Of a DNA stretch of 64,000 nucleotides, positions 55,158-62,140 are shown one piece after another; the first letter of the stretch is position 1, and each line of letters opens with the position of its first letter. The DNA lies in assembly GCF_000312425.1 (NCBI RefSeq), contig NZ_HE997181.1:4158045-4222044 (forward strand), written 5' to 3'. The position numbers and the translations under genes are program-made. The DNA comes from Reyranella massiliensis 521. GTDB lineage: Bacteria > Pseudomonadota > Alphaproteobacteria > Reyranellales > Reyranellaceae. The notes under the pieces were generated by a model. That model ran no database searches and had not been told where the DNA came from. It saw only the letters and a program-made list of their open reading frames with translations.

Positions 55158-55597
55158 GCGAGGTCAAAGTCGAAATCTTCACCGACGGCGCCTGCAGCGG
55201 AAATCCGGGACCGGGCGGCTGGGGTGCCATCTTGCGGATGGGCGAGCGCGAACGTGAACTTTCCGGTGGCGATCCGGCAACGACCAACAATCGCATGGAA
55301 CTGATGGCGGCGATCCAGGGACTCGAGGCGCTGAAGCGCCCCTGTCACGTCCGGCTGTTCACCGACAGCACCTACGTGAAGGACGGCGTCACCAAGTGGA
55401 TCCATGGCTGGAAGAGGAACGGCTGGCGCACCGCAGACAAGAAGCCGGTGAAGAACGTCGAGCTATGGCAGCGCCTCGATGCGGCGCGAAGTTCCCATCA
55501 GGTCGAATGGCACTGGGTCAAAGGCCATAGCGGCCATCCCGAAAACGAGCGCGCCGACCGTCTGGCGCGCGACGAGATCGCGAAGCTCCGCTCCTAG
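55154..55597 (+). CDS. rnhA: ribonuclease HI
   Basis: 147 residues from a GTG at 55154, overlapping the thrB stop as GTGA. The catalytic acids are Asp11 ([16 protein letters not shown]), Glu49 (NNRMELMA) and Asp71 (FTDSTYV), with the His in [14 protein letters not shown]. It degrades the RNA strand of RNA-DNA hybrids. The stop codon overlaps that of the convergent exported-protein gene. Confidence 0.97.
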
Positions 55598-60002: not shown

Positions 60003-60031
60003 TTGACTCGGGTCGGACCCCCGCCTATCTC
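60003..60031 (+). promoter_or_regulatory. promoter of the thrS leader
   Basis: -35 TTGACT (60003-60008), exactly 17 bases, -10-like TATCTC (60026-60031). The predicted start site, about seven bases on, coincides with the ATG of the threonine leader peptide at 60039, so the transcript may be leaderless. Confidence 0.65.
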
Positions 60032-60038
60032 CAAGCGC

Positions 60039-60092
60039 ATGGAACGCAGGTTTTCAACCGCTCCAGCCAACACCACCACCGTACGAACTTGA
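60039..60092 (+). CDS. threonine-rich leader peptide of thrS (attenuator)
   Basis: A 17-codon ORF, MERRFSTAPANTTTVRT, stop TGA. Five of 17 residues are Thr, with three ACC codons in a row and one Thr as the last codon. It lies between a good promoter and hairpins, 105 bp before thrS. No Shine-Dalgarno precedes it, but its ATG sits at the predicted +1, as in the leaderless trpL leader of Sinorhizobium. Stalling at the Thr codons when charged tRNA-Thr is scarce would raise thrS expression. Function is inferred from layout. Confidence 0.65.
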   Translation: MERRFSTAPANTTTVRT

Positions 60093-60095
60093 TTC

Positions 60096-60165
60096 GGCCG
60101 GGCGCAGGCACTCGTGCCGCTTCCCGGCCTGCCGTCGCCGGCGCTTTCGCGTCGGCGGGTGTGCC
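60096..60165 (+). promoter_or_regulatory. thrS leader hairpins (possible attenuator)
   Basis: First hairpin: GGCCGGG (60096-60102) with CCCGGCC (60123-60129), enclosing GGCA-CTCG-TGCC (60107-60118). Second: CGCCGGCG (60136-60143) with CGTCGGCG (60150-60157), one G.U pair. GGCAC (60107-60111) could also pair with GTGCC at 60161-60165, giving an alternative fold. Neither hairpin has a T-run, so a Rho-dependent or translation-level mechanism is more likely than intrinsic termination. Confidence 0.5.
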
Positions 60166-60196
60166 TCGTTCGCAATTTCGTTAGCTGGTGGATACC

Positions 60197-62140
60197 ATGA
60201 TCAACATTTCCTTGCCGGACAGTTCGGTCCGATCGTTCGACAAGCCGGTCAGCGGCGCCGAAATCGCCGCCTCGATCGGCCCGGGCCTGGCCAAGGCGGC
60301 CCTCGCCCTGCGCGTCGACGGGCAGATGAAGGACCTCGCCTACGTGGTCGATCGCGACGCCAAGATCGGCATCGTGACGGCGCGCGACCCCGATGCACTG
60401 GAACTGCTGCGGCACGACGCGGCGCACGTTCTGGCCCAGGCGGTGCAGGAGCTCTACCCAGGCACGCAGATCACGTTCGGCCCCTCCACGGAGGACGGCT
60501 TCTATTACGACTTCGTGCGGCCCGAGCCCTTCTCGCCCGAGGACTTCGCCAAGATCGAGCAGCGCATGGCCGAGATCGTCGACCGTGACCTGCCGATCAC
60601 GCGGGAAGTGTGGGACCGTGCGAAGATCAAGGACTACTTCGTCCAGCACGGCGAGAAGTTCAAAGCCGAATGGGCCGATGAGCTGCCGAAGGACGAGGAG
60701 ATCTCCGTCTACAAGCAGGGCGACTGGCTCGACATGTGCCTCGGCCCGCACCTGCCCTCGACGGGCAAGCTCGGCAAGGCCTTCAAGCTGACGAAGGTGT
60801 CGGGCGCCTACTGGCGCGGCGACGCCAAGAACGCCCAGCTCCAGCGCGTCTACGGCACGGTCTTCTTCTCCGACAAGGACCTCAAGGCGTACCTGACGCG
60901 CATCGAGGAAGCCGAGAAGCGCGACCATCGCCGGCTCGGCCGCGAGATGAACCTCTTCCATCAGCAGGAAGAGGCGGCCGGCATGGTGTTCTGGCACCCC
61001 AAGGGCTGGACGTTCTGGCGCACGCTCGAAGGCTATCTGCGTCGCAAGCTCGAGGCCGGCGGCTATGTCGAGGTGAAGACGCCGCAGCTCGTCGACCGCA
61101 AGCTGTGGGAGGAATCGGGCCACTGGGAGAAGTTCCGCCAGAACATGTATCTGAGCGAGAACGAGGAAGGCCTGCGCGAGTTCTTGGCCGACGACAGCAA
61201 GCGCATCTTCGCGCTGAAGCCGATGAACTGCCCCTGCCACGTCGAGATCTTCAACCAGGGTCTGCGCAGCTACCGCGAGTTGCCATTGCGCATGGCCGAG
61301 ATGGGTTCGTGCCATCGCTTCGAACCGTCGGGCGCGTTGCACGGCATTCTGCGCGTGCGTAACTTCACGCAGGACGATGCGCACATCTTCTGCAGCGAGG
61401 AGCAGATCGAGAGCGAGACGATCCGCTTCTGCAAGCTGCTGGACGAGGTTTACCGCGACCTGGGCTTCACGGATTACTTCGTGAAGTTCTCCGACCGGCC
61501 GCCGGTCCGCGCCGGTTCGGATGCGGTGTGGGACCAGGCCGAGGGCGCGCTTCTGTCGGCCTCGAAGGCGGCCGGCCTCGACGTCGTGCTAAATCCCGGC
61601 GAAGGCGCTTTCTACGGCCCGAAGCTGGAATTCGTGCTGCGCGACGCCATCGGTCGCGACTGGCAGTGCGGCACGCTGCAGGTCGATTTCGTGCTGCCCG
61701 AGCGGCTCGATGCGAGCTACGTGGCCGAGGATGGATCGCGCAAGCGGCCGGTCATGCTGCACCGCGCCATCTTCGGCAGCTTCGAGCGCATGATCGGCAT
61801 CCTGATCGAGAACTATGCCGGCCGCTTCCCCCTTTGGCTGGCACCGACGCAAGCTGTAGTAGTCACGATCGTGAACGACGCCGATGGGTATGCCGAGGAA
61901 GTCGCCTCGACCCTGCGTGCAGCGGGTATGCGGGTCGACACGGACCTGCGCAACGAGAAGATCAACTACAAGGTCCGCGAGCACTCGCTGGCCCACGTAC
62001 CGCTGATCCTCGCCGTCGGCCGGCGCGACATGGACAACCGCACGGTCGCCATCCGGCGGCTGGGCTCGGAAAAGCAGGAGGTCCTTGAACTCGGGGCCGC
62101 CGTCACTAAACTTTCAGTAGAGGCTCGGCCGCCTTTCTAG
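60197..62140 (+). CDS. thrS: threonyl-tRNA synthetase
   Basis: 647 residues from the ATG at 60197, preceded by GGTGG; a GTG three codons upstream is possible. Domains in order: N-terminal TGS (1-62), the editing/SAD domain (about 65-225, with [17 protein letters not shown]), the class II catalytic core with the zinc Cys in [10 protein letters not shown], motif 2 [24 protein letters not shown] and motif 3 near [15 protein letters not shown], and a C-terminal anticodon-binding domain. It charges tRNA-Thr. A Thr-rich leader peptide precedes it. It is followed 70 bp later by infC, a common pairing. Confidence 0.97.

Follow-up and report, generated by a model that had tools for sequence, protein, structure and literature searches.

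The threonyl-tRNA synthetase gene thrS of Reyranella massiliensis 521 is preceded by a conserved leader that we read as a leader-peptide switch; on the evidence of sequence comparison, this switch probably raises threonyl-tRNA synthetase (ThrRS) when charged threonyl-tRNA is scarce. In more specific terms, we interpret the leader as a translational attenuator of thrS that would sense threonyl-tRNA, a position that we hold with slightly better than even confidence in the light of the predicted folds. The leaderless layout, the short open reading frame (ORF), its Thr codons, the complementarity of the ORF with the thrS start region, and the predicted masking and release of that region were all computed. 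An alignment of related genomes, which a preliminary description of this DNA had put forward as a check, found that the ATG position, the Thr codons and the ORF length are conserved, which makes threonyl-tRNA-dependent control of thrS the best reading. The ORF end finds its conserved complement in the start region of thrS, and this favours an output at the level of translation. That description had also named two elements ahead of thrS: a leaderless ORF rich in Thr codons, which our comparisons support, and alternative GGCAC/GTGCC hairpins, which they do not.

In the window (the whole stretch of 64,000 nucleotides that was analysed), thrS occupies positions 60197–62140 on the plus strand (TIGR00418 of NCBIfam, 651 bits, cut-off 384) and is followed by infC (TIGR00168, NCBIfam); all of the leader features lie on the same strand. 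A predicted promoter at 60003–60031 consists of TTGACT (60003–60008), a 17-nt spacer and TATCTC (60026–60031), and its predicted +1 falls at 60039; direct reading of the window places 7 nt between TATCTC and an ATG at 60039, which agrees with the ATG described at the expected +1. This ATG opens a putative leaderless leader-peptide ORF of 17 codons at 60039–60092, which encodes MERRFSTAPANTTTVRT followed by a stop, and which we recognize from reading, family comparison and coding signal. The five Thr codons that had been reported are confirmed at codons 7, 12, 13, 14 and 17, so that Thr is the last residue; codons 12–14 are ACC ACC ACC (60072–60080), among which codons 13 and 14 are the conserved, predicted sensor codons and also form the segment that is complementary to the thrS Shine-Dalgarno (SD) sequence. 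The ORF closes with CGA ACT TGA (Arg-Thr-stop; 60084–60092), identical in 66/66 family leaders. Both of the hairpins said to lie behind the ORF are present: hairpin 1 (60096–60129; GGCCGGG/CCCGGCC) begins 3 nt past the leader stop codon and is found family-wide, and hairpin 2 (60137–60156) is genus-wide and variable in sequence. Further downstream, GTTCG at 60168–60172 is predicted to pair with CGAAC at 60084–60088; as an alternative in the window, TTCGT at 60177–60181 is able to pair with ACGAA. The thrS SD region, TGGTGG (60186–60191), is complementary to CCACCA within the Thr codons. As for the GGCAC segment (60107–60111), the two GTGCC partners ascribed to it do exist in the window, at 60114–60118 and 60161–60165, but the alternative that they offer is not conserved: GGCAC occurs in hairpin 1 of only 4/56 genus leaders, and together with the second GTGCC in only 2/56, namely the window itself and its close relative L157.

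The promoter and the start codon keep their arrangement throughout the family. In 66/66 leaders, we found TTGAC[A/G/T], a spacer of 17 nt and an ATG 6–8 nt past the –10 box, using a script that took the best-scoring combination in each leader and gave a small bonus to a spacer of 17 and a distance of 7. It is on this conserved layout that our promoter claim depends: a generic promoter scan of the window did not list the leader promoter (0 found), because its rule demands T as the final base of the –10 box. Promoters of the sigma-70 type begin transcription about 6–8 nt past the –10 box; the leader mRNA would be leaderless, with its start codon as the predicted 5′ end. The leaders of genus g279 contain a second in-frame ATG 6 nt upstream, one base past the –10 box, which we place outside the transcript because it is too near to that box. 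It was also seen by eye that the sequence 5′ of the promoter varies widely among genus genomes (L081–L108), while the promoter and leader stay.

Several properties of the ORF would fit a translated frame. Its length is 17 codons in 56/56 genus leaders; outside the genus it is 17 in g280, 22 in g26 and g278, and 23 in g279, so the frame is kept and the differences in length between genera are whole codons. At least two Thr residues lie within the last eight positions in 66/66 leaders, and at least three in 63/66. Among the 40 distinct ORFs of the genus, codon 14 is ACC in all 40, and codon 13 is ACC in 38 and ATC in the other two. In a coding test with the same 40 ORFs, the BLOSUM score per changed codon was 0.71, versus –0.22 (sd 0.36) for shuffled columns, and 14/2000 shuffles reached the observed score; the synonymous fraction moved in the same direction without being significant (173/2000 shuffles). 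Between genera, the peptide diverges except at its final two residues.

Our survey of the leader's distribution began from a thrS search of 61 genomes, 37 of them being our own genome plus its genus; the upstream regions compared first came from 28 genus genomes, our own included. A covariance model that extends from codon 12 to the thrS ATG (R1) was run on 65 genus genomes and matched the leader in 56. The nine misses arise because those assemblies lack the 5′ part of thrS: eight contain a weak paralogue only, and one contains thrS residues 522–647 only. Hence the leader is present in 56/56 genus genomes in which the 5′ part of thrS is assembled. In other genera of the family, all ten genomes, from four genera (g26, g278, g279 and g280), keep the promoter, the leaderless ORF, CGA-ACT-TGA and hairpin 1. 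The leader adjoins thrS, on its upstream side, in 66/66 cases. It is absent from the single genome that represents another family of the order (G037).

We extended this search to 385 sampled genomes of the class (E 0.001, with stricter filters), using R1 and also R2, a model of the family core. Each survey returned family members plus one weak match, in G386 for R1 and in G427 for R2; the family members in the R2 survey were five genomes. In neither of these two stretches was a thrS seen by eye among the longest frames. At E 0.001 we found no leader outside the family among these 385 genomes. An order-level search with R2 also gave weak matches in G087 and G013. Separately, we scanned the 220 nt upstream of 77 non-genus thrS loci (75 plus L109 and L110) for short Thr-rich ORFs, with L032, L037, L044 and L046 (upstream sequence truncated) and L001 (which shares a contig with L107) excluded, and with the listing for L003 void since that locus has no upstream sequence; no comparable leader was seen at these 77 loci. 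An ORF at L109 whose product ends in Arg-Thr was rejected, as it precedes a TTGACA and hence is not in a leader. The motif CGAACTTGA was found within 300 nt upstream of thrS in 0/76 non-genus loci that have upstream sequence. Judged from these sequence comparisons, the conservation of the leader is not due to chance.

A key element of our interpretation is the pairing of the ORF end with the thrS start region. When RNAalifold was given an alignment of 28 genus leaders as its only input, the Thr codons paired with the SD sequence (0.83–0.97) and CGAAC paired with GTTCG (0.99–1.00); in this fold both hairpins are enclosed by the helices that join the ORF end to the start region. Across the 56 genus leaders the SD sequence is GGTGG in 43, GGTGA in 12 and AGTGG in one. 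(The thrS start codon of L155 is a GTG, at the conserved position.) We counted paired cells in 55/56 genus leaders, leaving out L165 on account of its longer spacer: the two switch helices are 88% and 93% paired, and the whole structure is 92.8% paired, versus 22–47% with the partners slid. The inner pairs of both switch helices are mostly invariant, and so say nothing for or against these helices. Changes in the outer pairs were counted on a tree of 39 genomes as kept/broken: 5/5, 1/4, 2/3, 0/1 and 0/3. Since breaks in these outer pairs are no rarer than changes that preserve pairing, the tree does not establish covariation for the two switch helices. Three pairs of hairpin 2, counted on the same tree, gave a mixed result (5/1, 3/1 and 1/3).

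We also compared the observed pairing with shuffled sequences in 20 leaders, comprising ten chosen genus leaders and all ten from the other genera. The genus leaders have 13.8–16.9 expected pairs; in each of the ten, shuffled start regions equalled the observed pairing 0–3 times in 60, and shuffled ORF ends did so 0–14 times in 60. Furthermore, the longest helix that codons 10–15 can form with the last 18 nt ahead of thrS is at least 6 in 52/56 genus leaders (0.929), against 0.19 for shuffled controls. In the window, GGTGG lies near the start of 2/45 ORFs, a figure that is too small to provide a background, and for which the start calls are crude.

We then consider what a ribosome on the ORF would do to this structure. 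In the free fold of the 56 leaders, the mean openness of the SD sequence is 0.04, and its mean pairing probability with ORF nucleotides 37–45 is 0.72; in genus g1, that of the window, the default fold is thus predicted to mask the thrS SD sequence, with the leader codons as part of the mask. Openness is 0.07 when nucleotides 1–27 are covered and 0.29 when nucleotides 1–54 are covered. The energy needed to open the start region follows the same course: 8.8 kcal/mol in the free leader, 7.8 with an early ribosome and 5.2 with the ORF covered. The gain exceeds 2 kcal/mol in 42/56 leaders and is 1.9 kcal/mol in the window's own leader. If the footprint of the stalled ribosome alone is blocked, openness rises to only 0.18–0.20; a footprint at codon 14 leaves the SD sequence more open than in the free leader in 48/56 cases, and by >0.3 in 8/56. 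Openness is just as high (0.19) with a ribosome at the stop codon, and a ribosome at codon 8 has a partial effect (0.15). Bearing in mind these footprint-only results, the model needs the ribosome to depart quickly after termination, and we would expect the switch to be graded and not sharp.

We infer the following course of events from these data, including the start site, the translation of the ORF, the stalling and the direction of control. The A of the leader ATG would be the first transcribed base, and it is there that 70S ribosomes would start without a SD sequence. With ample charged threonyl-tRNA, ribosomes would traverse the 17 codons and depart; the freed ORF end (ACC ACC ... CGAAC) would then fold onto GTTCG ... 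GGTGG, with the two hairpins enclosed, and this fold would mask the thrS SD sequence. When charged threonyl-tRNA is scarce, a ribosome would wait on Thr codons 13 and 14 (and 17), covering ACCACC and CGAAC; the thrS start region would stay open, and more ThrRS would be made. In genus g1, the sensing codons themselves would be the anti-SD sequence. If this model is true, the level of charged threonyl-tRNA sets the synthesis of its own charging enzyme with no regulatory protein or riboswitch ligand, sensor codon and anti-SD sequence are the same bases, and the leaderless leader peptides of alphaproteobacteria gain both a synthetase gene as target and an output in translation.

Outside genus g1 the GGTG SD sequence is not kept, and no SD sequence ahead of thrS is visible by eye except in g280. 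It is also only in g280 that an ORF-end mask at the SD sequence is found beyond g1; there the pairing is made with different letters, AACCGCC with GGCGGTT. Genera g26, g278 and g279 (L167–L175) retain the leaderless ORF, and their thrS ATG follows sequences such as CATCC. In g279 we found GAAC/GTTC and GAGGC/GCCTC, about 15–25 nt before thrS, and in one g26 leader the pairing CGAACTTGAG/CTCGAGTTTG. By the shuffle test, the pairing of the ORF with the start region exceeds shuffles only weakly in L168, L170 and L174, and does not exceed them in L172, L173 and L175. A bolder version of our reading is that the leader is a one-piece switch, in which the sensing codons of a leaderless ORF are the anti-SD sequence and their occupation is the release, with the family having re-made the contact between ORF end and start region by means of pairs that differ between genera; we advance that version tentatively, giving it a little less than an even chance. 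The invariant core of the family, together with genera that lack the SD sequence and have the ORF, offers a natural series for studying the evolution of the switch.

The same ORF could serve transcriptional attenuation, in which stalling would decide whether an antiterminator forms or whether transcription ends at a terminator, either intrinsic or dependent on Rho. Leader-peptide attenuators usually act in this way, and so do those described for synthetase genes (PMC1262725); the absence of SD pairing in three genera of the family means that another output may operate there. A simple terminator rule (a stem of 5–7 pairs and ≥5 T within 8 nt) does find a terminator-like site between the ORF and thrS in 11/56 genus leaders, including one at 60155–60173 of the window; the preliminary description had remarked on the lack of a T-run, which is right only in part: a long T-run is lacking, yet the rule does find this site. 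On the other hand, the site is absent from 45/56 genus leaders and from 10/10 of those outside the genus, and this scarcity makes transcriptional attenuation less likely. The longest T-run between the leader stop and thrS is ≤4 in 54/56 genus leaders, and in 53/56 the 14 nt past hairpin 2 contain no 8-nt stretch with more than 3 T. Direction also counts against it. The 3′ arm of the window's site includes GTTCG and competes with the CGAAC/GTTCG pairing, and GTTCG is part of the site, by eye, in ten of these 11 leaders (all but L082); a ribosome waiting at Thr codons would then favour the site, so that the window's site and most of the 11 would be expected to form when charged threonyl-tRNA is scarce, which is opposite to what a starvation response calls for. 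To our minds these sites weaken the translational reading and do not overturn it, and we regard transcriptional attenuation as unlikely. The shortage of terminator-like sites bears also on a second proposal, in which the leader RNA or peptide acts in trans, like rnTrpL and peTrpL, and thrS in cis is a minor target or none. PMC7298713 describes peTrpL as a leaderless leader peptide of an alphaproteobacterium that acts in trans, and the core of our leader is more conserved than a cis-acting switch requires. Yet only the 11/56 genus leaders with such a site might release a small RNA, the peptide diverges between genera apart from its last two residues, and the element stands ahead of thrS in every one of the 66 leaders; we consider action in trans very improbable.

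Hairpin 1 and its surroundings prompt two further proposals. The segment CGAACTTGANNCGGCCGG (60084–60101 of the window) is invariant across 41 aligned family sequences, and the peptide is less well conserved than CGAACTTGA and hairpin 1. As judged from this alignment, the invariance of CGAACTTGANNCGGCCGG appears to exceed what either the peptide or a helix needs, and no model proposed here explains it. The tip of hairpin 1 (60112–60117) reads [C/T]GTGC in 55/55 aligned genus leaders, preceded by T in 53, and it thus holds a Thr anticodon, CGU or UGU. These features might be expected if ThrRS were to bind a tRNA-like hairpin 1 and repress its own synthesis, with the ORF being secondary: E. coli ThrRS binds hairpins that adjoin the thrS start, according to the part of PMC3858243 that was accessible, and invariance past structural need is what a protein site might display. 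However, g26 and g278 retain hairpin 1 but not the anticodon-like triplet, for which reason we rejected a tRNA-anticodon mimic. The invariance of GUGC can be accounted for by its other role, as the 3′ arm of the inner stem. Moreover, 67 nt separate the end of hairpin 1 from the thrS ATG, and with this gap and the loss of the triplet the leader does not present the tRNA-like hairpin beside the start that would mark an operator of the E. coli type. Autogenous repression would also leave the leaderless ORF and its Thr codons unexplained, and we rate it as improbable. The conservation of CGAACTTGA and hairpin 1 above that of the peptide could instead denote a structured RNA, such as a ligand-binding element, with the ORF as an untranslated by-product. 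That proposal we find scarcely credible: the ATG sits 6–8 nt past the –10 box in 66/66 leaders, the frame is kept at lengths of 17, 22 and 23 codons, and only 14/2000 shuffles match the coding score. Nor did the leader match any Rfam family up to E 5, T-box included, so the T-box and other Rfam families were set aside. Elsewhere in the window, 55468–55499 gave a Rfam match to CRISPR-DR29 (19 bits, E 4.1) that is far under threshold and probably due to chance.

Our preferred reading, a translational attenuator that would sense threonyl-tRNA, has relatives among several known systems. In erm leaders, ribosome stalling controls a masked SD sequence and antibiotics are sensed; a T-box makes direct contact with tRNA and works without a leader peptide; and we know of no leader peptide in the E. 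coli thrS operator. Control of a masked SD sequence is shared with the erm leaders and with the SD-masking T-boxes of ileS, in which, in the excerpt of PMC1262725 used here, tRNA exerts that control. Leader-peptide attenuation of a synthetase gene is shared with pheST of gammaproteobacteria and with trpS and leuS of Streptomyces; these are classical transcriptional attenuators, and the same excerpt of PMC1262725 describes none for thrS, none that is leaderless and none that masks a SD sequence. With the E. coli thrS operator our leader has in common both the gene and control at translation initiation, but that operator, in which ThrRS binds hairpins near the start, senses the free ThrRS protein (PMC3858243, in the part available), whereas ours is predicted to sense threonyl-tRNA. 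No thrS leader peptide is named in the titles or abstract openings among the matches listed from the open-access literature. Leader peptides of synthetase genes and the leaderless trpL are known; we read the thrS leader as a novel form of ribosome-dependent attenuation.

The closest parallel to its leaderless layout is trpL of Sinorhizobium meliloti (rnTrpL/peTrpL), in which the RNA begins with the leader ATG, as reported in PMC7298713 and PMC10117765. Both would be alphaproteobacterial leaderless leader peptides in which the sensed amino acid has codons of its own. The trpL leader terminates transcription and serves a biosynthetic operon, whereas the thrS leader has a tRNA synthetase gene as its target; the end of its ORF is predicted to pair with the start region of the gene, and terminator-like sites are limited to 11/56 leaders. 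In the Reyranella massiliensis 521 genome itself, the likely ATG of trpE (L177, 1404–1419) lies 10 nt past the stop of an upstream frame of at least 467 codons, which leaves no room for a trpL leader at that gene.
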